A stretch of 30,582 bases of DNA, from positions 1-30,582 of IMG/VR virus record IMGVR_UViG_3300034073_005379; one strand, given 5' to 3'. The translations under genes were made by a program, and so were the position numbers. Below, piece after piece: positions 4,423-24,730 of the stretch (positions are counted from its first letter, which is position 1; each line of letters opens with the position of its first letter). This stretch comes from a virus. The notes beneath the pieces are model-generated. The model saw nothing but the letters and a program-made list of their open reading frames with translations, searched no databases and was not told the DNA's origin.

Positions 4423-4944
4423 ATGAAATTGACAGTCACACAGTTACGCAGGATCATCAAGGAAGAGTTAGAAAGTGTTTTGCATGAAGTTGGTGTCACA
4501 GGCGAAGAATTCATGGGAATCCTTGATGAGCCAACGATTGGTGACCTGCCTGTCATCGAGTCTTTCTCAAGAAGAAGGCTCAATGAAATGACTTACGAAG
4601 AATTCCGATTGATCGACGCCCTCGCAGGTTTGGCCGTCTCGGCTGGCGTTGCAGGACTTGTCTCTGTTAAGATATTGGGAAGCAAAGTCTACAATAAAAT
4701 ATTGGATCGTCGTGAACAAAATGCTGCTAAGGGCCGACAAAAAGCGATCGATGACGCCATGGCTCCTCTCGTGAATGATGAAAAACTTGCAGGAATGCTC
4801 GAACAACTTGCACAACTGAAAAAGACTGGTACCTCCACCGAAGTACGAACCATGAGCAAGTGGATAACCGACTACATCAAGGAAAACATGTCACCCACTG
4901 GCGCAGATCCCATGGATGTCCGCAAAGCACTCACAAGAAGATAA
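4423..4944 (+). CDS. Leader-family protein 3 with hydrophobic segment, 173 aa
   Basis: AGGAG lies upstream of MKLTVTQLRRIIKEELESV, the third nearly identical leader, which ends in V-L-H-E. The body has a variable region, then a Gly/Ala/Val-rich hydrophobic helix around residues 65-85 (IDALAGLAVSAGVAGLVSV) that could span a membrane. A charged helical segment (DRREQNAAKGRQKAIDD) and a helical C-terminus follow. If the leader targets proteins to the phage head, a hydrophobic helix would suit a protein delivered into the host membrane; that is speculation. Confidence 0.7.
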   Translation: MKLTVTQLRRIIKEELESVLHEVGVTGEEFMGILDEPTIGDLPVIESFSRRRLNEMTYEEFRLIDALAGLAVSAGVAGLVSVKILGSKVYNKILDRREQNAAKGRQKAIDDAMAPLVNDEKLAGMLEQLAQLKKTGTSTEVRTMSKWITDYIKENMSPTGADPMDVRKALTRR

Positions 4945-6526: not shown

Positions 6527-6895
6527 ATGAAGGTAAGAATTGGAGAACTAAGAAAAGTCATTCGTGAAGAACTGATGAGGCAACGTGTCGAGGAATACTT
6601 TAAAAACCTGACAGTTGAAGGAATTAAAATAGATCCCAAGGATGATCGACGCCGCATCATGACTCTGGAATTCCCCAAGGAACCAAAACAAGAAAAGGCG
6701 CTAATTGACCTCGTGAAGCAGATGCCTAGCCTGATGCCAGGCTCACAGAGTTATGTCGACCAGGCCTTGGCATGGGCCAAATCGGGTAACTTTGCAGGCA
6801 TCCTAGACTTGATTAGGACATACATGGCCAGCAAATCTCGCGGCCGCTACGTCATAGAAATGCCTCGAGGCTTTGAAGAGCCGACATACGCCTAA
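6527..6895 (+). CDS. Leader-family protein 4, 122 aa
   Basis: GAAGG precedes the ATG. The N-terminus MKVRIGELRKVIREELMRQ is a diverged form of the shared leader (E-L-R-K-V-I-R-E for Q-L-R-R-I-I-R-E). The body has a basic/acidic linker (IKIDPKDDRRRIMTLEF) and helices (EKALIDLVKQM; YVDQALAWAKSGNFAGIL), then an Arg-rich end. No family is recognised. It lies downstream of its own possible promoter. Confidence 0.65.
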   Translation: MKVRIGELRKVIREELMRQRVEEYFKNLTVEGIKIDPKDDRRRIMTLEFPKEPKQEKALIDLVKQMPSLMPGSQSYVDQALAWAKSGNFAGILDLIRTYMASKSRGRYVIEMPRGFEEPTYA

Positions 6896-8775: not shown

Positions 8776-11700
8776 ATGAATCGCAAGTTGTTCTCGGTGC
8801 TTCTGTTTCTTGTTGCTTTCGTTACGACTTTTTGTGTTTCATTGACCGTTCGGGCTCAGTTCACACCTCCGCTCGACAGCAAAGCCAAGATCCCCAACGT
8901 CCTTCTCCTCGTGGACTCAAGCGTCTCCATGACATGGGCGCTGGATGGAACCGACGCAGATTGCAAGGATGAGCTCAATCCGAAGAAGGCGCGGTACACG
9001 ATCCTCGGTGAGGTTCTCACAGGAACGGTGGATGACCTCGATTGTTGGTCAGCCAACGATCCACTGAACATCGATGGCCCGCCAGTCCCTCTCATGTCCA
9101 ACTCGGAAAGACACCAACCGGGTGGTCAAAACTGCGTTCCAACCCTCAACCTCGATCCGGACATCATCAACTCTCTCAAGGCAAATCCCCTCGGTTGGCC
9201 CTACGAGGCGGCGGACAAGGACAACTCTTCATCGATCTCATACTGCGGAGGTAAAACCGCTATGAAGTTCGCACGTTGCTTCTCCTCCTCGGGTTGGAGC
9301 AACCGTGATGTCTGCACCAAGGCTACCATCGGTTGGAACCAGGCCGCAGATGGCCTCATCGACACGTACGGCACGAAGATTCGTTTTGGAATGGCATCGT
9401 TTGATTCTCTTTCGTTTCCAGGTTACACAACGTTGTATTCCAATAAGAACATGGCGTGGTGGACCCCTGAGACCGGAGGTCCTGTATCTCTGATCTTAGA
9501 TCCCCTCTGTAGGAACGGAACGAAGGGATCGTATTGTTTTCGATATGTTGCACCGTTCTCCTTTTATGATGTGGGTGAATGGTCATACTGGCACGGAACG
9601 GGTTCAGATTTGTCTTCCACCTGGTTGACAGGCAATCGAACGGCAACCCTGTTTCCTTCCACCAACTTTGTAGGTGGAACGGTTCATCCCTTCATCGATT
9701 CAGATGTTGGTATTCGTAATCCACGTGCCCTACCGCACAAGGGTCGTCTCATCGGTTTTGGACATCCCGATGCAACGGTGACAGATACCCAGGCCCACAA
9801 CGACATGGTTCAGGATTCCATCCTCGGCCTGTCCATGAACCTCGAACACTCCACACCGCTGGCTGCCATGCTTCGTGACACCTACGAATTTATCTCCAAC
9901 GATACCACCTCACTAGGCGTCACCATTCCACATCCCAACACCGCCGCACCGGTCACGGTCAACATCGGACCGAAGATGGATCAATACTTCTCCAGCACCC
10001 CACGATGTAGGGACACAATGATCGTGCTGATCTCAGACGGTGAACCAAGCAACGATATCAACGACAGACCGGCATACTGGACAGGCCGTACGGCCCTGGA
10101 ACAAGAGGTCGACACTCTGGTCCTCGGCATTGGGCTCGACTCGGCTCGTTGGAATCCTGGCACAGGACCGGTCAGTGTTAAATGTGACTCACTCACACCC
10201 AACGACTACAGCGATGTTCCCACATCCACGGTCATGTGCACACGTTCATCCGGCCTCGGTTGGAAATACGCCGATGTCTCTCCTCACAACAACGGCCTTA
10301 CAGATCCCGACAAATCTGCCATCCGCGCCTGTTGCAACCTACTTGAAATCGCCATCAACGGTGATCCACACAACAAATACGGACAGACACCCTACTTCCC
10401 AAGCAACCAGGCAGAATTCAAACAGGCACTCGATGCAATCCTAAAATCGGCAGCCGGAACCACGGTGAGCAGAACGGTTCCCGTATTCGCAAACATCACA
10501 TCAACATTCCAACCAGGAAACGCTCCGGCTGCCTACTACGAACTACGTTCTGCACTCATCCCCACGGCCCGCCCAACAGCCGGAACCCTGGAACGTGTCA
10601 GGTATGCCTGCAACAACTCAGCTGAACCTATTCGCCAATCGGTGGAGGAGACCCTAGGCGATTCTTTCCATAAAAACATGGATTCACCAACGGTCAATTT
10701 CCCAAGAAAATTCTTCACGGCTGTTCCATTGAAGGTGGGTGGTGTTGTGAAACCAATGTGGACTGTGAGGCCTTCATCGGTCACCGAGGATTGGTTGACA
10801 GGTTCACCTTCCACCACCGGAAACTTCATGAGGCTCAACGGTTCGGCACCTGACCTTACTCCACCTCACACCGGTGATACCATGGTTACAATCAACAACC
10901 TCTCAACCGCGATCGATTCGATAACGGGTGGGCCATCGGCGGCCGAGTTGTTGAACATCACCAATGCCGATAGGAATACCTGTAGGGATCAGGTTGGAAC
11001 CAATGGAGTTGGAGCCTGTGCCAACAGGGTCCTTCAGTGGTTCGGTGGTTCATCCACAACCTACACACTTCCCAACGGAAAACAATCACCTTCTCGTGAT
11101 CCATCGGTGTGTGGTGGTTGGGATAAGTGTGGGCCGTTGGGTGCCATCTATCGATCCAATCCGGTGATCGTTGCACCTCCTGAACCCAATGCGGCTGAGC
11201 AATCTTATTCAAACGGTGTGGATTCATTCTATGCCCAGGAGAAATCCAGGCCCACCATGTTGTATGCCCAAACCATCGATGGAATGTTGCATGCCTTCGT
11301 GATGTCAAAGAATGCCAACCTACCTGATCCATATGGGGGTGTTCCAACCGTGGACAAGCTGGAGAATAACGAGCTGTGGAGCTTCATTCCTCCGGCTGTT
11401 CTTCCACAGATTTGGCCTAACTTCAAGGTGGAGGCTAGATTGTTGGATGGACCGTTGGCGGTTGGAAATGTGGTGTTCTCTCGCTCGGAGGCACAGACCG
11501 CCGAGGGTGATGCCGGAGCTTCAGGATTCAGGACCGTGTTGGTTGGTTCATCAGGTTATGGAGAGACAGGATTCTATTATGCTCTTGATGTAACCAATCC
11601 AATGTCTCCACGCTTCTTATGGCAACTGGTCAACTCGTCGGGAGGTGGTGTCATGTTCGGCAAGGTACTGCCAGGAGCAACAATCACAACCGTGAAGGTG

Positions 11701-13017
11701 AAGGATCCCAAGGATGGGCAGATAAGACAGATCGGTGTGGCTGTCCTCCCAGGAGGTAGGGATCCAGGAACACCAAATACCATCACCACCCGTAGGATCG
11801 ATTCATTCTCAAGGGATCCAATCTTCAACTGGAACGGTTCAGGTTACACACCTCGAAGCCAAATACGAAATTGGGGAACCAAGGTACCAGGTAGGTCTGT
11901 GACCTTCGTGGAACTTGCCACTGGGCGAATCATCGCAAGGCTTTCAGGTGAATGGGGAGACAACCCAGGAAAGACATCAACCATCACCTGTGGAGGAACC
12001 ACATCAGGAGCCGATCCAAACCTCTGTGGATTGAACCCAAATGTTCTTGTCCATCCAAAACAGGTCAGCTTCGATTCTCCCATCACATCCACCCCGGTGG
12101 TCTTTCCAAACGGTACCGCACAGGTATCCACTCGAGCCTATGTTGGGGATGCCGATGGAACCTTGTGGAGGATCAACATGGTGGATCCTGACCCACAAAA
12201 ATGGACAGCCGAGATTGCCTGGGACTCCTACAATCACACGGCACCGATGGATAACTCACTTCGCCGAGCCTATTCGGTCAATGGGGTCACCGCAGGTCAA
12301 CCCCTCAACTCATCGGTGACCGAATCTGTCGGAGCCCTTCTAGGTCAACCTGTGGAACAGCCTCCAACCATCACCGTCGATTACCAGAACAATCCAGTCC
12401 TGACCTTCTCCACCGGTGAGAATGATTCATTCAACTCATACTCACCAGGTATGCTCAACTTCATCACCACTTTCATCGATGCCTATGACAACTCCAACGG
12501 TAAATTCGTTCCAACCATATCATCCACACATGGAACGATCATGGCATTTGTTGATGGAGCTCGTGTCACAGGTCCAACCACGCTGTTCGATGGAAAAACA
12601 TTCTTCAGCTACTTCACACCTCAGACAGGAAACACATGCACCTCAGGTGCCGGTGGTTGGTGTGCAATCGATTTCCTGGCCGGAAACAATGGATCTCCTA
12701 CGGCGGTTCTAGATATCGATTCAGCAACGACGGGCCTCGACATCTGTGATCCATTCGAAAACGGTGAGGTTGTATTCGGCATTTCAGTCAATGCTGTGCC
12801 ATCGTGTGTTCAATCCGAAGACAGCTTCAACGACCAGTTCCTCGCTGGGCAATACAACAGCTACTCAAATTCCAAAGGTTTATCATACCAACTCGTGATG
12901 CAGACAAGCCAAGGTGGATCAACCGAGGATGGATCCACTGTGAACACTGCTCGTTATCCCCTACCTCCTCCGCGTTCCCATGCGCGTGTTCAATCATGGG
13001 CTTCGGTGATGCAATGA
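8776..13017 (+). CDS. PilY1-like type IV pilus-associated protein (VWA + beta-propeller)
   Basis: A 1413-aa exported protein. Residues 1-27 form a signal peptide (basic start, hydrophobic core, V-R-A cleavage site). A von Willebrand A domain follows, with MIDAS motif D-S-S-V-S at 47-51 and a later strand MIVLISDGEPSND near 415. The C-terminal ~600 residues carry the PilY1/PilC propeller signatures: MLYAQTIDGMLHAFV (~825), VLVGSSGYGETGFYYALDVT (~917) and AYVGDADGTLWRINM (~1120), the last possibly Ca2+-binding. PilY1 proteins sit at type IV pilus tips and act in adhesion, pilus extension/retraction and surface sensing. TACAAT and GGTGA precede the ATG. It is complete and overlaps the methylase gene by ATGA. 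A pilus gene in a phage is unusual. Confidence 0.88.
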   Translation: MNRKLFSVLLFLVAFVTTFCVSLTVRAQFTPPLDSKAKIPNVLLLVDSSVSMTWALDGTDADCKDELNPKKARYTILGEVLTGTVDDLDCWSANDPLNIDGPPVPLMSNSERHQPGGQNCVPTLNLDPDIINSLKANPLGWPYEAADKDNSSSISYCGGKTAMKFARCFSSSGWSNRDVCTKATIGWNQAADGLIDTYGTKIRFGMASFDSLSFPGYTTLYSNKNMAWWTPETGGPVSLILDPLCRNGTKGSYCFRYVAPFSFYDVGEWSYWHGTGSDLSSTWLTGNRTATLFPSTNFVGGTVHPFIDSDVGIRNPRALPHKGRLIGFGHPDATVTDTQAHNDMVQDSILGLSMNLEHSTPLAAMLRDTYEFISNDTTSLGVTIPHPNTAAPVTVNIGPKMDQYFSSTPRCRDTMIVLISDGEPSNDINDRPAYWTGRTALEQEVDTLVLGIGLDSARWNPGTGPVSVKCDSLTPNDYSDVPTSTVMCTRSSGLGWKYADVSPHNNGLTDPDKSAIRACCNLLEIAINGDPHNKYGQTPYFPSNQAEFKQALDAILKSAAGTTVSRTVPVFANITSTFQPGNAPAAYYELRSALIPTARPTAGTLERVRYACNNSAEPIRQSVEETLGDSFHKNMDSPTVNFPRKFFTAVPLKVGGVVKPMWTVRPSSVTEDWLTGSPSTTGNFMRLNGSAPDLTPPHTGDTMVTINNLSTAIDSITGGPSAAELLNITNADRNTCRDQVGTNGVGACANRVLQWFGGSSTTYTLPNGKQSPSRDPSVCGGWDKCGPLGAIYRSNPVIVAPPEPNAAEQSYSNGVDSFYAQEKSRPTMLYAQTIDGMLHAFVMSKNANLPDPYGGVPTVDKLENNELWSFIPPAVLPQIWPNFKVEARLLDGPLAVGNVVFSRSEAQTAEGDAGASGFRTVLVGSSGYGETGFYYALDVTNPMSPRFLWQLVNSSGGGVMFGKVLPGATITTVKVKDPKDGQIRQIGVAVLPGGRDPGTPNTITTRRIDSFSRDPIFNWNGSGYTPRSQIRNWGTKVPGRSVTFVELATGRIIARLSGEWGDNPGKTSTITCGGTTSGADPNLCGLNPNVLVHPKQVSFDSPITSTPVVFPNGTAQVSTRAYVGDADGTLWRINMVDPDPQKWTAEIAWDSYNHTAPMDNSLRRAYSVNGVTAGQPLNSSVTESVGALLGQPVEQPPTITVDYQNNPVLTFSTGENDSFNSYSPGMLNFITTFIDAYDNSNGKFVPTISSTHGTIMAFVDGARVTGPTTLFDGKTFFSYFTPQTGNTCTSGAGGWCAIDFLAGNNGSPTAVLDIDSATTGLDICDPFENGEVVFGISVNAVPSCVQSEDSFNDQFLAGQYNSYSNSKGLSYQLVMQTSQGGSTEDGSTVNTARYPLPPPRSHARVQSWASVMQ

Positions 13018-14693: not shown

Positions 14694-14926
14694 AGTCGGG
14701 TGACATTGTTCTTTACGACAGATTCGGCACCGAATGGGATAATTTGTCACCTTCAAATATACCCGATGACTTTGGCATTGGTATCATTCTTGAGGTTATA
14801 AAAGATCCGCCCGGGCGGGATGATGATTCATGTGCACGTATAATGAAAGACGACGGCACACAAGGAACTTTTTCATTATCTTATTTGGTTAGACTTGATT
14901 CTTTCGATAAAAAAGAAGAAACATGA
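14690..14926 (+). CDS. SH3/KOW-like small protein, 78 aa
   Basis: It starts by ATGA overlap. The sequence MKSGDIVLYDRFG, then FGIGIILEVIKDPPG, then ARIMKDDGTQGTFSLSYLVRL follows the same plan as the cluster at 1927-6480, particularly the gene at 3369 (G-V-V-L-E-V-E-R-D-P and M-N-D-G-R-T-E-G). The family is thus scattered around the genome as well as tandem. It is followed by a two-way terminator. Confidence 0.7.
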   Translation: MKSGDIVLYDRFGTEWDNLSPSNIPDDFGIGIILEVIKDPPGRDDDSCARIMKDDGTQGTFSLSYLVRLDSFDKKEET

Positions 14927-14960: not shown

Positions 14961-14986
14961 TTTGCGGCAAGTATACTTGCCGCAAA
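14961..14986. terminator. Bidirectional terminator between convergent operons
   Basis: TTTGCGGCAAG (14961-14971) pairs perfectly with CTTGCCGCAAA (14976-14986) around a TATA loop. It is flanked by an A-run on the left (a T-run for the minus strand) and AGTTT on the right. It lies exactly between the plus-strand gene ending at 14926 and the minus-strand prkA gene ending at 15012. It looks stronger for the minus strand. Confidence 0.8.
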
Positions 14987-15011: not shown

Positions 15012-16946
15012 TCAGCTGTCACGCCACAGGTTGTTTGAGGCAAATACCAATATTTCTTCTGCGCTTTCTGCGTTGTATCCGTAATTTTTGACGAGAGTCT
15101 CAACCATCTCGTTGTACTTCTCCTTCTGTTCTTCGTCTCGTGTCTTACTCTTGGTGACGACGCGGGCGAGAGACTTGACCGACGAGATGAGGTAGGATTC
15201 GATGGCCTCACGGAGTGGTTCATATGAACGGAATCCGACCTTCTCACCACGTCTCATCTTGGCGAACATGTAGGCTGCGACGTCTGAACGGAAACCATCA
15301 CGGGCCGATCCGCTGATGCCGATCTGTTCCTCGATGGACGACATGAACTGTTCGTCAGGTTTACGCTCCTCCTTGGTGACACGATCCTTTAGCTTAATGC
15401 GGGTCGTATAGGCCTCTGCGTTGTCGAGGTAGGTGTCAAAGAGAGACTGGGCCTGTTCCTCGTAGGCGGAGATGAAAGCCTTGGCAATCTCGTTCTCGAG
15501 GATCTTTAGGTATTCCTCCCGAACAATCTTCTGAAGGATCTCAAGGCAACGGGTCTTGAACGTCTCATCGTTGATCTGTTCCTTGACCATTCGGGTCAGA
15601 GATTCCATCACCGATATCGGGGTTATCATACCCTTGTCGCTGGAGGTCAAGGCGTTGTCGAGAGCCTTGGTGATGAAACGGGTGGAGATGCCGTCCATTC
15701 CTTCATGCTTCGCCTCTTCGCGAAGGTCCTTGATGTCCACCTTACGAACTCGTCCCTTCTCCAGGACGTCTTCGCCATTGTAGATCTTCATCTTTGTGAG
15801 AGGATCACACTTGGCCGAGGGCTTCAGGCGGCTCATGACCGAGAACATCGAGGCGACCTTGAGGGTGTGAGGGGCGATGTGCGCCTTGAAGTCCGACTTG
15901 CCGAGCATCTTCTCGTAGATCTTTACTTCCTGGTCCACCTCGAGGCAGTAAGGAACTGCGACTTTGACGATGCGGTCCATGATGGCCTCGTTGGTGTGTT
16001 CACTCTGGAAGCGGTTCCATTCAGCCTCGTTGCAATGTGCAAGGATGACACCATCGAAGTGAAGCATGTCCGACTTGCCAGGTGAGGGAACCCTCTTCTC
16101 CTGTGTTGCAGTGATGATGGTGTGGAGGAATTCAATCTCATTCTTGAAGACCTCAACCAGCTCCACGATGCCGCGGTTGCCGACGTTGAATGCACCCGTG
16201 AGGCTCAGTGCCCGTGGGTCGTCCTCAGCAAACTTGTCGAGCTTGGAGATGTCGACCGAACCGATGAGGACCGAGACGTCCTGCGAGTTGGCGTCCATTG
16301 GAGGAACGGCTGCCACCCCTCGGCGGCCTCTCTGTGAGAACGATGTTTCTTCAATCTCAAAGTCTTCATACTTACCGGCATAGTCATTGAGAAGCTTGTG
16401 ACGTGCAACTGGAGAGATGTCGCCGTCGATCTTTACCCCTAGGGCTTTTTCGAACTCCGGACGAAGAGAGCGTGGAACTAACTGAAGAGGCTCTCCACGA
16501 TGTGGATCCCCTTTTAGATGGTAGTACTTCTTTCCTTCTAAGGCCCGCTTGATGTGTTCTGTGAGGGCAGACTTGCCGGCGCCGACAGGTCCCATCAGGA
16601 GAAGAACCTGGCGAGATTCCTCACCCTTGTGTGCAGCTGATGAAAGGAATGACATCACCTTCTCAACAACATTTTCCATACCAAAAAATTCGTTTTCAAA
16701 GTACTTGTAAATCTTTATTTGTTCACCATCAAAGATCTTGAACTTACGAGAATCAGTGTCTGACATCGTATACGAACCGTGTTCGTCGATCGCCTCATAA
16801 AGCCTCCGATGGGCCGACTTGACCAAAGAAGGATCCTTTTCGACGAGGTCGACGTAATCCATCAGTGTTCCTGAAAACTTTTTATTCTTTGCCGACTCTG
16901 CCCGAGCAGACTCGATGTGCTTTAGCAATTCCTTTTTAACGCTCAT
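15012..16946 (-). CDS. prkA: PrkA family serine protein kinase (AAA+)
   Basis: A 644-aa homologue of PrkA/YeaG. The order of conserved blocks is that of the family: FFGMENVVEKVMSFL (~88-102), Walker A G-P-V-G-A-G-K-S at 119-126, then DVSVLIGSVDISKLDKFAEDDPRA and VELVEVFKNEIEFLHTIITATQE, HFDGVILAHCNEAEW with NEAIMDRI, VPYCLEVDQEVKIYEKML, and GMDGISTRF. The C-terminal part matches the kinase-like domain up to NLWRDS. Length is normal (E. coli 640). I start at 16946 (MSVKKELLKHI), with GAAGGAT upstream; 20 further codons are open but lack support. PrkA acts in starvation and spore responses, partly as kinase and perhaps with ATP-dependent protease activity. It is the last gene of a three-gene operon. 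Confidence 0.95.
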   Translation of the reverse strand: MSVKKELLKHIESARAESAKNKKFSGTLMDYVDLVEKDPSLVKSAHRRLYEAIDEHGSYTMSDTDSRKFKIFDGEQIKIYKYFENEFFGMENVVEKVMSFLSSAAHKGEESRQVLLLMGPVGAGKSALTEHIKRALEGKKYYHLKGDPHRGEPLQLVPRSLRPEFEKALGVKIDGDISPVARHKLLNDYAGKYEDFEIEETSFSQRGRRGVAAVPPMDANSQDVSVLIGSVDISKLDKFAEDDPRALSLTGAFNVGNRGIVELVEVFKNEIEFLHTIITATQEKRVPSPGKSDMLHFDGVILAHCNEAEWNRFQSEHTNEAIMDRIVKVAVPYCLEVDQEVKIYEKMLGKSDFKAHIAPHTLKVASMFSVMSRLKPSAKCDPLTKMKIYNGEDVLEKGRVRKVDIKDLREEAKHEGMDGISTRFITKALDNALTSSDKGMITPISVMESLTRMVKEQINDETFKTRCLEILQKIVREEYLKILENEIAKAFISAYEEQAQSLFDTYLDNAEAYTTRIKLKDRVTKEERKPDEQFMSSIEEQIGISGSARDGFRSDVAAYMFAKMRRGEKVGFRSYEPLREAIESYLISSVKSLARVVTKSKTRDEEQKEKYNEMVETLVKNYGYNAESAEEILVFASNNLWRDS

Positions 16947-16980
16947 AGCAGTTTCTATCCTTCTAGCATGTAGCTGTAAA

Positions 16981-18285
16981 TCAAATTTCCCAAGTTTCTT
17001 CTTCAATTATAGTAAAGAACTGTACAGGCGCATCCCACAAAGATTTTAGATGTCGTACAACTTCATTAGCATGCGAAAGTTCCAGATCTCTTCCATCGTG
17101 TTCATGTCTCACGACCAAAGTCCCATCTCTTTTTACATTATCAACGAAGACCGCCGGGATTGATCCGCCACCGACCTGCTTTACTAGGTCTCTTTTAACG
17201 TCTTCCCAGCCTAATTCATCAGAAACTTCATCGACAGTTATTCCGTCTTTTTTCTTCGAAGAGTAGGTAAATAGATTTAAGTCAACGCAATCTTCTTCTG
17301 TCAGATATTGCCTGATAAAAGAAGCATCATGACAAACCTCTCGCGCAAGAAAACACTCTTCTATACCGTGTCGCTCTTTGATTCTCTGGAAGAGATGGAA
17401 CCCTAAATGATAAGGATTGATCGCACCGATGTGGGGTCTCACGACCTGATTGTGCATCTTGATAAAAGGTAGATGCATTTCGTCAGGCAGGTCCAGTTCG
17501 TTGCACATCGTGTAGTGCCAATATGACGCCCACCCTTCATTCATCACCTTCGTCTGAATCTGTGGCCAGAAGTATTGACCCTCATCACGACAAACCTCTA
17601 TAATGTCACGTTTCCAGCTCGGTAATTTGCCGTATTCAGATATGAAACCTAAAACATCGTAGTCAGGCTCTAACGGAATCTTCGTAATGTCAATGCCTTT
17701 GTATTTTTCATCTTTATCGTTATTGATAAGCTCGATGTATTCAGCTTTTAGCTCTTCGTGAGTTCTTCTTGTTTGTCCATACTTTGTCGTCTGAAACTGG
17801 ATCGCATGGCAAGCGTCTATCACCTCTTCTACCAGCTCAACCCCGATGTTTGGATTTTCGATATAGGATTGAATCCTCTTCTTTGCCGCCCTGAACCTAG
17901 GAACGACCGTTTCAGGTCGTGTCTTTCGAAACATTCGATTGTTCTTGAAGAAATCGCTGTGTCCCACACAATGTGCCATGATGAGAATCTGAAGATACAG
18001 CGGATTTTCCCTCATCAGGTACGCGATAGAAGGATCGCTGTTGATGATTAGTTCGTAGGGCAGGCCTTCCATGCCGAGGTTGTATCGATGGATCGTCTGT
18101 TCAAACGTCTTGCCGTACGACCAATGATCGAAGTGTGTTGGAAGACCATGGTACGACATGGCACCGATCATAGAGTAATAATCTAAAGTTTCATAGGCAA
18201 TGTCAAACCAGTCAAGTCCATGACTCTTGGCCATCTTACAGATCTTTTCGTCCCATTGCGTTAGGGTGTCTAAGGAATAATCCAT
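16981..18285 (-). CDS. spoVR: SpoVR/YcgB family protein
   Basis: A 434-aa member of the SpoVR family, needed for cortex formation in Bacillus and present in many non-sporing bacteria with prkA and yeaH; its biochemistry is unknown. Family blocks are easy to see: LDWFDIAYETLDYYSMIGAMSYHGLP, SYGKTFEQT, GLPYELIINSDPSIAYLM, the MAHCVGHSDFFKNNRMF segment, MNEGWASYWHY and NPYHLGFHLFQRI. It is a little shorter than E. coli YcgB (~510). It lies 1 nt after the yeaH-like gene and 34 nt before prkA, so the three are almost certainly co-transcribed. Confidence 0.95.
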   Translation of the reverse strand: MDYSLDTLTQWDEKICKMAKSHGLDWFDIAYETLDYYSMIGAMSYHGLPTHFDHWSYGKTFEQTIHRYNLGMEGLPYELIINSDPSIAYLMRENPLYLQILIMAHCVGHSDFFKNNRMFRKTRPETVVPRFRAAKKRIQSYIENPNIGVELVEEVIDACHAIQFQTTKYGQTRRTHEELKAEYIELINNDKDEKYKGIDITKIPLEPDYDVLGFISEYGKLPSWKRDIIEVCRDEGQYFWPQIQTKVMNEGWASYWHYTMCNELDLPDEMHLPFIKMHNQVVRPHIGAINPYHLGFHLFQRIKERHGIEECFLAREVCHDASFIRQYLTEEDCVDLNLFTYSSKKKDGITVDEVSDELGWEDVKRDLVKQVGGGSIPAVFVDNVKRDGTLVVRHEHDGRDLELSHANEVVRHLKSLWDAPVQFFTIIEEETWEI

Positions 18286-18286
18286 T

Positions 18287-19456
18287 TTATTTTTCCTTTA
18301 ATGAACTGCCTAGCAAACTAAGAAAGGCAGGCCATACGTCGTCTTTTCCTTTGATCGTCACCTGTTTCATTTTATTACAGACCAACGGTCGTAGCACTTC
18401 GTGCAGTTTACCTGTTCCATTTACCCATGACGTGTCAGGATCTATTTCACAATAGCCATACAACTGAACGACCTCGAGGAGTTTTCTGCCTTCTTTGAGT
18501 ATCACTTCGTTGTCGTGTCCGAAGTTGTCGCCGTCGCTGCCTTGAAAAACATAAATGTTCCAGGATTCAGGATGATATCTCTTTGAGATGACGTCTAAAG
18601 TTAATGTCAACGCCGTCGACGCAATCGTTCCTCCGTTGGTCGCCTCAGTAAAAAACCCTTTTTCATCAACTTCACGTGCTTCCGTGTCGTGTGTAATGAA
18701 AACGACGTCAACCGTGTCGTACTTCATTCTAATGAACTGATAGAGCAAAAAGTAAAAAGATCTTGCAAGAAACTTTTTATCCTGCGACATCGAGCCGCTA
18801 ACATCCATCAAGAAAAATATGACGGCGTTGGTGCATGGTTTTGGCGTCAACTTATAATGACGGTACTTCAGATCGTCTTCATGAAAAGAAAAAGTTTCGT
18901 CCTCTTCGGCTTTTTCAGGATCGAAGCCCGCCGCCTTCATTCTTTTTATGCGTGCGATCGCAGACTTCTTTCTGTCCAATCGTGGTAGGATGCCTTCTGT
19001 CCTGTAACCTTTTCTCTTTAGCTTTTCTGTGCTGATGTTTGCTAATTGTCTCTTTTGAAGCTCAGGCAATTGCAATTCAGAGAAGAGGTACTCCGCCAAT
19101 TCTTCTAAAGTGATCTCAACATCATAATACTCTTCACCTTTTTGGTCACTGGCCTTTTGTGGTTGGCCATCGTCTTGGTCCTGCGGCTCACCGATCTTTT
19201 GGCCTCTCTTGACGTCTTTACCTGGTGCTGACCCTACCTGCTTATTCCCGTTGTTCGTTCCGTATACGAACTTGTATTCCTTGATGCCGCGGACGGGTAT
19301 CCTGAACTTCTTCTTACCATCCTGCCCAATGATTGATTCATCAGCGACTATGTGATGTATGCCTTCACGTATGGCCTTTTCAATCTTCTGCTTGTGTCGC
19401 CTTCTGTCAGATGCCGATCTATCAGCGATCGTCTTGTGTTCCCTGAATATTGACAT
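18287..19456 (-). CDS. yeaH: DUF444 protein (YeaH/YhbH family), VWA-like
   Basis: A 389-aa protein of the YeaH/YhbH family, the usual genetic partner of prkA. The N-terminus has the typical basic ADRSASDRRRHKQKIEKAIR. A Gly/Gln/Asp-rich linker follows (about 66-108, with KIGEPQDQDDGQPQK), then the ILPRLDRKKSAIARIKR block. A VWA-like domain carries MIDAS D-V-S-G-S at 218-222 and the segment VVFITHDTEAREVDE with FF ... TNGGT. Length is close to YhbH (~390). It is the first gene of the operon, with an exact TATAAT eleven bases before its ATG and no Shine-Dalgarno. Its role, perhaps as partner or target of PrkA, is not settled in any organism. Confidence 0.95.
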   Translation of the reverse strand: MSIFREHKTIADRSASDRRRHKQKIEKAIREGIHHIVADESIIGQDGKKKFRIPVRGIKEYKFVYGTNNGNKQVGSAPGKDVKRGQKIGEPQDQDDGQPQKASDQKGEEYYDVEITLEELAEYLFSELQLPELQKRQLANISTEKLKRKGYRTEGILPRLDRKKSAIARIKRMKAAGFDPEKAEEDETFSFHEDDLKYRHYKLTPKPCTNAVIFFLMDVSGSMSQDKKFLARSFYFLLYQFIRMKYDTVDVVFITHDTEAREVDEKGFFTEATNGGTIASTALTLTLDVISKRYHPESWNIYVFQGSDGDNFGHDNEVILKEGRKLLEVVQLYGYCEIDPDTSWVNGTGKLHEVLRPLVCNKMKQVTIKGKDDVWPAFLSLLGSSLKEK

Positions 19457-19584
19457 TGTTAATTCACATTATAATTTGTTATCACGAAAAAGAAATGCGA
19501 TTGCGTTTTTATACAGGCACTTTCGTGTAAATATGTCTCCCGTTATGATAATCCTTCAGCTAACAAGGAAAGAGGTCAATAGAA
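19457..19584. promoter_or_regulatory. Divergent promoter region, yeaH operon / nei
   Basis: 128 bp separate the two oppositely directed units. For the minus strand an exact TATAAT (plus-strand ATTATA at 19468-19473) lies 11 nt before the yeaH-like ATG. For the plus strand TATGATAAT at 19544-19552 offers a -10, and AAGGAAAGAGG is a strong ribosome-binding site for the glycosylase gene. No convincing -35 is seen on either strand. Confidence 0.5.
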
Positions 19585-21679: not shown

Positions 21680-21685
21680 TATAAT
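21680..21685 (+). promoter_or_regulatory. TATAAT box for groEL
   Basis: An exact TATAAT ends five bases before ATG 21691 and eleven before a second in-frame ATG at 21697. No Shine-Dalgarno lies in between. This would give a leaderless or nearly leaderless groEL transcript. No CIRCE-type inverted repeat is visible, so host-style heat-shock control is not indicated. Confidence 0.5.
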
Positions 21686-21690
21686 TGTTG

Positions 21691-23316
21691 ATGAATATGC
21701 TTTCATCACACAAAAATGAAAAGTCTACACGAGTTGTATTTTCTTCAGAAGCACGTAAGGAACTATACGCAGGTCTTGAGGTAACTGCTGAAGCGGTTTG
21801 TTGTACTTTAGGTCCAAAGGGAAAAACCGTTCTTGTTCAAAATCCTAACGGCAATCCGATCATTACCAAGGACGGTGTGACTGTAAGCAAGTCGATAAAT
21901 CTAAAGAATCCATTAAGAAGAATGGGTTCTGAGATGATTCGTGAAGCAGCCAATAGGACAAACGAAGTTGCAGGTGATGGAACAACAACATCAACTGTTT
22001 TGACTCACGCCATGGTGAAATCAGGGCTTAGGTTGTTAGAGTCCGGTTATTCATCACAGGATCTTTGTGCAGGGATTAACGTTGCTGTAAAAGCAGTCGT
22101 TAACGACCTTGAATCAAAGGCAAAGCTCCTGACGACACCGTCAGAAATTGCCCAGATCGGCACGATCAGCGCCAATGGCGACAAGAACATAGGTGAGCTG
22201 ATTGCAACGGCAATGGAAAAGGTTGGGCAAGATGGCATCATCACGGTAGAGGATGCCAAAGGGATGTCGACGTCGTTAGAAATTGTTGAAGGAATGCAAT
22301 TTGACAGAGGCTATCTTTCACCCTACTTCGTGACGAACAACGAAAAAATGAATGTCGTTTTTCATGATGCAAAGGTTCTTTTGACCGACAAAAAAATATC
22401 AACATTGCGTGAGCTGATTCCGATCTTAGAAAAGATCAACCAAAATAGAGGTTCGCTTCTCATCATTGCAGATGACGTAGAAGGTGAAGCGTTGCAAGGT
22501 CTTGTTGTCAACAGACTTAATGCAAACCTGCAGGTCGCTGCAATAAGATCCCCTGGATATGGTTCGCACAAGGACGAGTTGTTGCATGATATTTCGGTCC
22601 TAACAGGAGCCAAGATCGTTTCACCAAAAACCGGGAACAAGTTAGAGACGATGACGTATGCTGACCTCGGCACTTTAAAGAAAGTTGTCGTTGATGCAAA
22701 GTCATCGACCCTAGTCGCAACGGGCGGAACCAAGAATGATGTCGACGCTCACGTTCAAAACCTCAGACACCAGATGAACGACGTGACCTTGACTTTTGAT
22801 GAGCTTACAAAGCTGAAGACAAGAATAGCCAAGTTGGCTAGCGGCGTCGCTGTGATCAAGGTAGGCGGAGCCACAGAGCTGGAGATGGTAGAAAGAAAGT
22901 ATCGAATCGAGGACGCCTTGAATGCCACCCGAGCGGCCGCCGAAGAAGGAATCGTTCCAGGCGGAGGAATGGCTCTCTTTAATTCCTTAGATTGTTTACA
23001 AACGTTATATGATAACTCCCCTCAACACATCAAGGCAGGCATTTCAATCGTTCAAGACGCATGCGTCGCTCCAATCAGAAGAATAGCTTCAAATGCAGGA
23101 CAATCCCCTGAGGTGACAATCAACGAATTGCACAGAAGCAACCCAGAAAAAAAGACGTCATTGGGTTATAACGCCGCCAACAACACGTTCGTTGACATGG
23201 TGGATGCTGGTATCATCGATCCCGCCAAGGTGACGAAGACTGCAATGAAGAACGCTGCATCAGTCGCCACAACTTTCCTATCTCTTGACGCTGTCATTGT
23301 TGAGGAAGAGGGATGA
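21691..23316 (+). CDS. groEL: Chaperonin GroEL
   Basis: A 541-aa 60-kDa chaperonin that folds proteins in an ATP-driven double ring. Conserved blocks are intact: TLGPKGKTVLVQN, ITKDGVTVSKSI, the ATP-site GDGTTTSTVL (Asp96, equal to E. coli D87), MQFDRGYLSPYFVTN in the apical domain, EDVEGEAL-like ADDVEGEALQGL, and RIEDALNATRAAAEEGIVPGGG with the hydrolytic Asp. It lacks the Gly-Gly-Met tail of bacterial GroEL and ends VIVEEEG. No groES is next to it; some phage chaperonins work alone, or it may use host GroES. It is coupled by overlap to a small membrane-protein gene. It may help fold the large fibres or capsid. Confidence 0.97.
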   Translation: MNMLSSHKNEKSTRVVFSSEARKELYAGLEVTAEAVCCTLGPKGKTVLVQNPNGNPIITKDGVTVSKSINLKNPLRRMGSEMIREAANRTNEVAGDGTTTSTVLTHAMVKSGLRLLESGYSSQDLCAGINVAVKAVVNDLESKAKLLTTPSEIAQIGTISANGDKNIGELIATAMEKVGQDGIITVEDAKGMSTSLEIVEGMQFDRGYLSPYFVTNNEKMNVVFHDAKVLLTDKKISTLRELIPILEKINQNRGSLLIIADDVEGEALQGLVVNRLNANLQVAAIRSPGYGSHKDELLHDISVLTGAKIVSPKTGNKLETMTYADLGTLKKVVVDAKSSTLVATGGTKNDVDAHVQNLRHQMNDVTLTFDELTKLKTRIAKLASGVAVIKVGGATELEMVERKYRIEDALNATRAAAEEGIVPGGGMALFNSLDCLQTLYDNSPQHIKAGISIVQDACVAPIRRIASNAGQSPEVTINELHRSNPEKKTSLGYNAANNTFVDMVDAGIIDPAKVTKTAMKNAASVATTFLSLDAVIVEEEG

Positions 23317-24084: not shown

Positions 24085-24504
24085 TTGGAATTAGCCTTTC
24101 TAGATGAATTAGACTTTGAAATCAACGAAAACTGTGAGATAATATTGCCTCCTTACGTCAGTAAGTTGCAGCAAGACGAGATAAGTTTGATTCGATCTTC
24201 GAATGACCCTTCAAAAAAAGTCATTGCCGCAGGAACAGATCCAAAGGATCAAAAAATAACGCTGATCACTGCGACAGGCAAAGTAATGATCTTCGACGCA
24301 AAAAAGTTTTGTGTGCCTGATGGGCCTGCAGTTCCGACCAGCACAGGTGAAAAAGTTTTCTTACCGAACGCTGATAATAGATGGCCAAGCCCTGTCGAAG
24401 GATTTTACGTTGACTCAGAATGGATGCTAAAAAATAGCACGTCTGGTCTTGTAGGCGCCACGTTGTCGGTCAATAATTACAATCGTGAAGATAACAATAG
24501 GTGA
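24085..24504 (+). CDS. Hypothetical acidic protein, TTG start, 139 aa
   Basis: TTG 24085 follows AACAGGAGC, a good ribosome-binding site, one base after the previous stop. The N-terminus is acidic (MELAFLDELDFEINENCEI). The middle looks like beta strands (KKVIAAGTDPKDQKITLIT, KVMIFDAKKF). The C-terminus has a Pro/Trp part (NADNRWPSPVEGFYVDSEW). No family is recognised. The next gene starts inside its last 20 bases. Confidence 0.6.
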   Translation: MELAFLDELDFEINENCEIILPPYVSKLQQDEISLIRSSNDPSKKVIAAGTDPKDQKITLITATGKVMIFDAKKFCVPDGPAVPTSTGEKVFLPNADNRWPSPVEGFYVDSEWMLKNSTSGLVGATLSVNNYNREDNNR

Positions 24505-24730
24505 GCTTAGAAGACTCATACGTGAACAGGTTGGAACGATGGTTTACATCCACAACGCCGGATTCGGTGGACAAGCGGGTGTAAGCGGACTTAGACGTTT
24601 AAAAGATGTACCCCCACCAGGTTTGGGGGATGAAGGAGAACAGGAAAAACAAGAGCATGAGCAAGAACAAGAAGAATTTCAGCAATGGAAAGTCGCAGCA
24701 AGACAACGCAAAGATGGAAAGAGAAGATAG
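24485..24730 (+). CDS. Leader-family protein 5, GTG start, 81 aa
   Basis: GTG 24485 opens MKITIGELRRLIREQVG, a recognisable copy of the shared leader (compare MKVRIGELRKVIREE at 6527). The body has a Gly-rich hydrophobic part (VYIHNAGFGGQAGVSG), then a highly charged Glu/Gln helix (EGEQEKQEHEQEQEEFQQW) and a basic end. Its last 17 bases overlap the IF-1 gene in another frame. It lies 18 kb from the other strong leader genes, so the leader is dispersed. Confidence 0.6.
   Translation: MKITIGELRRLIREQVGTMVYIHNAGFGGQAGVSGLRRLKDVPPPGLGDEGEQEKQEHEQEQEEFQQWKVAARQRKDGKRR

Follow-up and report, generated by a model that had tools for sequence, protein, structure and literature searches.

We show here that the genes yeaH, spoVR and prkA of the window, a linear IMG/VR virus fragment of 30,582 bases (IMGVR_UViG_3300034073_005379), form a phage-owned module, which the window's lineage, large phages of the Gp23 type, acquired a single time from a version resembling that of Clostridia (YhbH type) and has kept under selection. 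On this module we base a tentative functional proposal, to which we give a little under an even chance, namely that the three proteins would work as one machine, remodel other proteins at the expense of ATP and in this way keep the host cell usable while a long infection lasts.

Organization of the operon

The minus strand encodes yeaH, spoVR and prkA, in that order (Table 1), with gaps of 1 nt (18286) and 34 nt (16947-16980). All are full length by Pfam, with matches far beyond chance. The PrkA start is most likely the ATG at 16946, which we prefer over a possible upstream TTG at 17006 because aligned relatives begin at the same M. Given that start, the first-pass annotation was correct in describing a single strand with 1-nt and 34-nt gaps, and its account of full-length genes with intact motifs is borne out by Pfam and by conservation of the Walker A, MIDAS and SpoVR blocks. 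It had also placed the trio between a TATAAT box and a two-way terminator. Both boundaries hold. Of the 21 closely related sequences listed, 14 have the box at the same place 5' of yeaH, and the terminator is convergent with a plus-strand gene ending at 14926. When seven stretches were compared with shifted control positions, TATAAT was found 5' of 15 gene starts and of no control position. No -35 hexamer was called at the yeaH box. Reading expression timing from the boxes was rejected, as they precede a tail-fibre-like gene and also exonuclease-like, cupin and other genes.

Table 1. Positions of the operon, its signals and related features. Positions are those of the window unless a locus is named.
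Feature	Position	Strand	Remarks
yeaH/yhbH (DUF444; VWA domain with MIDAS)	18287..19456	-	Operon gene 1; 389 aa; Pfam PF04285, 1.1e-108
spoVR	16981..18285	-	Operon gene 2; 434 aa; Pfam PF04293, 3e-118, and SpoVR_C; AF2 model, pLDDT 90.7
prkA (yeaG family; AAA+ ATPase and PrkA C-terminal domain)	15012..16946	-	Operon gene 3; PF08298, 3.8e-137; PF06798, 1.9e-79
TATAAT box	19468..19473	-	11 nt 5' of the yeaH ATG; probable promoter element
Intrinsic terminator after prkA	14961..14986	-	11-bp stem, loop of 4, T tail; strong
groEL-like chaperonin gene	21685..23316	+	Full length, 543 aa; Pfam Cpn60, 8.2e-73; PHROG 5725, 5e-148
Divergent GroEL-like gene behind prkA	L037:12306-13628		Others in, e.g., L073, L061, L057 (about 50 loci)
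Intein-like spoVR gene	L014:3255-5813		Insert at NEGWA|C
Intein-like spoVR gene	L167:15471-17378		Insert at NEG|C

Elsewhere in the window, a secreted-looking protein of 1413 aa with an N-terminal DSSVSM motif (8776-13017) appears PilY1-like by eye; searches of Pfam, PHROG, NCBIfam and PADLOC gave no match for it. Four small and otherwise unlike proteins (1478-1795, 4423-4944, 6527-6895 and 24485-24730) begin like MKLTxxQLRRIIREE, as if with a common N-terminal tag, and about a dozen short ORFs between 2321 and 6480 begin like MKxGDLVR, apparently a tandem-duplicated family.

The operon in viral genomes

A scan of IMG/VR with the window's PrkA gave 164 relatives, of which 80, with 65-92% identity, were kept. 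In 78 of these 80 loci the trio is complete and in the order YeaH-SpoVR-PrkA, counting two whose yeaH is truncated where the contig ends or falls into two frames; in the two exceptions the contig ends inside the operon. We checked 14 large trio-carrying records for hallmark genes; terminase was matched in 13 of them and a Gp23-type capsid protein in 11. In the phylogenetic tree, the PrkA proteins of all 40 sampled members of the lineage make up one clade (SH-aLRT 100) beside the Clostridia-type PrkA. For all three genes, dN/dS is about 0.02-0.08 in closely related pairs whose dS is not saturated, and the trio is under strong purifying selection. No nucleotide-level relatives were found among named phages. 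One relative lies in L086, a contig assigned to a Methylococcaceae MAG by binning; from the PrkA tree and the gene order we judge this contig to be that of a phage. PrkA is missing from eight other records of 90-200 kb that have a close capsid protein and may be fragments, and the trio is thus accessory rather than universal.

These data bear out the phage setting proposed in the first-pass annotation. The viral search that it suggested, for co-located prkA, spoVR and DUF444 genes, found many complete trios, and its question as to whether the phage copies form a clade of their own is answered by the tree. It had named two findings that would undo the idea, a chimeric contig and a recent, decaying host insertion, and neither agrees with the conserved gene order, the phage hallmarks in the same large records, the old clade and the purifying selection. 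On these grounds we rejected chimera or host insert for the window's trio, and we regard it as hardly credible; we found nothing that speaks for it. Host DNA is the likely explanation for another record, that of Enterobacter phage LAU1 (MN688132.1, 1-3308), a small phage record in which yeaG/yeaH sit at the very start and branch with E. coli YeaG. We set this record aside as probable host sequence.

Chaperonins and other neighbours

The groEL-like gene of the window is the divergent neighbour of the trio and has a TATAAT box 5' of its start. Of 82 loci, 66 have a GroEL or GroEL-like protein close to the trio. It is a full GroEL, encoded upstream, in the subclade to which the window belongs. 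In most of the other loci it is a divergent GroEL-like protein, about 440 aa long, whose gene directly follows prkA; this arrangement is present in 49 of the 77 loci with enough downstream sequence. The divergent protein matches GroEL with 99.5% probability in hhalign, and its model (pLDDT 92) matches GroEL structures with E values of about 1e-24. The ATPase residues of GroEL comprise the GDGTTT motif and the catalytic Asp398, and both are absent from the GroEL-like protein in the hhalign alignment with GroEL. Several genomes with this gene behind prkA also hold a normal GroEL elsewhere. Judged by alignment and model, the protein appears to be a chaperonin relative with a dead ATPase, encoded in one operon with the trio.

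Genes for PhoH, a DinG-type helicase, a trypsin-like peptidase, a Nudix-like protein and ClpP also recur in the neighbourhood. In ten loci, an FtsZ/tubulin-like protein is encoded a few kb downstream (L024:14429-15571), its match to Pfam Tubulin (1.9e-4) being below the cut-off. In 32 loci of viral lineage 2, a second group of large phages, the trio is preceded by genes for a PAAR protein and a zeta-toxin-like kinase (e.g. L331:3365-4093); zeta toxin and spoVR were both named as viral genes in a study of an oxygen minimum zone (PMC8940887). No GroEL was found near the trio in the loci of lineage 2, Thermus phages or huge phages.

Motifs and folds of the three proteins

The PrkA protein has the AAA_PrkA domain, the PrkA C-terminal domain and an intact Walker A motif, GPVGAGKS, and thereby belongs to the PrkA family; GPVGxGKS is conserved in nearly all aligned rows. 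It scores 404 bits against the NCBIfam equivalog PRK15455, below the cut-off of 576, which places it in the same family but in another equivalog. In YeaH, the DUF444 domain is present and the MIDAS (DxSxS, T, D) is intact, its D, S, S, T and D residues being invariant in 150 sequences; the score against the nearest NCBIfam model, TIGR02877 (YhbH), is 379 bits, under the cut-off of 468. What PrkA does is disputed. Some papers describe a kinase, while neither kinase nor protease activity was detected for the purified Bacillus anthracis protein, and PrkA is needed in that bacterium for sporulation and survival of osmotic stress (PMC13001217).

The window's SpoVR is a member of its family, with a SpoVR domain over the full length and SpoVR_C. 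Residues H105, H109, N249, E250, G251 and H257, which make up the motifs HxxxH and NEGWAxxxH, are invariant in 63 phage and bacterial sequences. The catalytic Glu of HExxH is absent, its place (position 106) being taken by C, V, A or S in every one of these sequences. In a second-look comparison of the AF2 model with VIA-align, the best rows were gluzincin peptidases, led by DUF885 with Z values of 11.9 and 10.8, which are of a size that can occur by chance in mostly helical models, and followed by LTA4H, Pz peptidase, ACE and M32. Foldseek returned nothing below an E value of 0.2 for the model, hhalign of the SpoVR profile with five DUF885 proteins was negative, and a profile search of PDB sequences gave chance matches only. 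Two unrelated phages have intein-like inserts in the NEGW motif of SpoVR, at sites next to each other; we count these in favour of a functional site because inteins habitually occupy active sites. We put at about even chances that SpoVR is a metal-binding, gluzincin-like protein as modelled, and not a classical peptidase.

Possible functions of the module

The chaperonin and virion-gene neighbourhood of the trio suggests protein remodelling at least as much as a starvation state, and we infer that the trio may have a role in starvation or in virion assembly. In the reading that we favour, PrkA is most likely an ATP-driven AAA+ ring and YeaH would be its VWA/MIDAS adaptor, with SpoVR as a metal-binding partner of gluzincin fold that might be loaded, activated or worked with by the ring in the manner of MoxR-VWA systems. 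Together with the phage chaperonin, this machine would probably remodel host or phage proteins during the long cycle of a large phage. It is tempting to speculate that this remodelling keeps the cell alive and stress-controlled, as YeaGH does in starved E. coli, which we consider the weakest step of the proposal. YeaG and YeaH together act as a metabolic brake in E. coli under nitrogen starvation (PMC4664914, PMC10954441), and a latent period of 270 min is given for Ralstonia jumbo phage RsoM2USA, a carrier of spoVR and prkA (PMC8504454).

The same neighbourhood could be taken further. A possible, if doubtful, alternative is that the trio serves virion assembly or quality control of phage proteins, as an ATP-driven chaperone with a phage GroEL or GroEL-like subunit, and has nothing to do with starvation. 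The frequency of chaperonin genes near the trio, and directly behind prkA, is consistent with this, as are the location of the trio between portal/minor head genes and TerL in Thermus phage Lalka8, the PAAR gene near the lineage 2 trio and the recurrence of ClpP and trypsin-like peptidase genes. However, the trio is accessory rather than core, with capsid-matched records that lack its PrkA, three groups of carriers show no GroEL beside it, and closeness to late genes is not proof of function. At the other end, as the first-pass annotation had proposed, the trio alone might switch the state of the host, holding it in a starved state or waking it from one. The starvation-state idea is plausible by analogy with the E. 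coli YeaGH work, where the two proteins quiesce metabolism in nitrogen-starved cells and slow regrowth (PMC10954441). The long latent period of RsoM2USA and the abundance of viral spoVR in an oxygen minimum zone (PMC8940887) are in line with it. As a complete explanation, such a switch nevertheless seems unlikely to us. A role in phage defence or counter-defence is very improbable, the one sign of it being a weak PADLOC match of the AAA part of PrkA to DolB (1e-6 over about 115 residues); SpoVR, YeaH and the GroEL-like protein matched nothing in PADLOC.

For large phages, one could further imagine a machine of four parts. PrkA and YeaH would be its AAA+/VWA motor, SpoVR a gluzincin-like metal protein that lacks the peptidase base, and the GroEL-like protein an ATPase-dead pseudo-chaperonin, and the whole would remodel proteins in long infections. 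We think that this composition is improbable as a whole. If it were true, the same chemistry would also lie at the core of the PrkA-YeaH-SpoVR stress module in bacteria.

Relation to earlier reports

The first-pass annotation had seen in the trio an undescribed phage system. The phage system stands, since the trio is complete, phage-carried, in a clade of its own and under purifying selection. 'Undescribed' does not, as SpoVR and PrkA are already annotated in Thermus phages YS40, MN1 and phiLo and in RsoM2USA, and a study of an oxygen minimum zone reported viral spoVR, as a 'sporulation' gene, to be an abundant auxiliary gene (PMC8940887). We found no paper that treats the trio as a phage module, its rotated order or the chaperonin-like fourth gene, in a search that covered sources other than subscription journals and preprints. 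The bacterial trio is widespread and linked to starvation survival or sporulation, and the phage versions offer natural clues: their operon is compact and rotated, a chaperonin-like gene joins it as a fourth, and inteins mark the SpoVR motif.

Comparison with known systems

Bacterial loci that hold the whole trio read PrkA-YeaH-SpoVR, and the order of the window is therefore a rotation, one that is seen only in phages. The nearest bacterial relatives are the PrkA-YhbH-SpoVR operons of Clostridia type (e.g. L087-L099), in which the genes are likewise adjacent and PrkA is 53-57% identical to that of the window, but which are chromosomal and in the bacterial order. E. coli yeaG-yeaH, with ycgB as spoVR, belongs to the same three families and shares the AAA_PrkA, DUF444 and SpoVR domains and motifs, whereas its PrkA is only 31% identical, its order is yeaG-yeaH and its spoVR is not adjacent.

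Among phages, Thermus phages YS40, MN1, phiLo and Lalka8 carry the genes in the order YeaH-SpoVR-(x)-PrkA, with a PrkA that falls in a separate clade, at about 30-35% identity to that of the window. As these are culturable carriers, the role of the module could be approached in them by gene removal. The trio is also phage-borne in huge phages of about 600 kb (LR745206, LR756504, LR756511) and in lineage 2; unlike the window, these have the bacterial order and mostly a proteobacterial-type PrkA. The whole trio is present in 65 of 80 lineage 2 contigs, the rest missing one or two genes, often with a short flank. A few contigs of this set (L289, L294) group inside bacteria and may be host DNA. 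In the examined passages of the RsoM2USA report, SpoVR (ORF28) and PrkA (ORF30) are annotated and the trio is not treated as a unit (PMC8504454); searches of the phage collection returned no match for the RsoM2USA record. Given that the Thermus phages, the huge phages and lineage 2 hold separately acquired copies, the module has entered large phages at least three times. These copies hold all three genes in most complete stretches, which argues that the genes are used together, and this repeated, mostly whole uptake suggests one functional unit that pays in the infected cell.

Lastly, in the MoxR-type AAA+/VWA pairs RavA-ViaA, NorQ-NorD and CbbQ-CbbO, the AAA+ gene lies beside that of a VWA protein with a MIDAS, and the trio shares this pairing of an ATPase gene with a MIDAS VWA gene. 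PrkA itself is an AAA_PrkA protein with its own C-terminal domain and not a member of the MoxR family, its Pfam matches being AAA_PrkA, PrkA and a weak AAA_16. By analogy with these pairs, it may still work as MoxR ATPases do.
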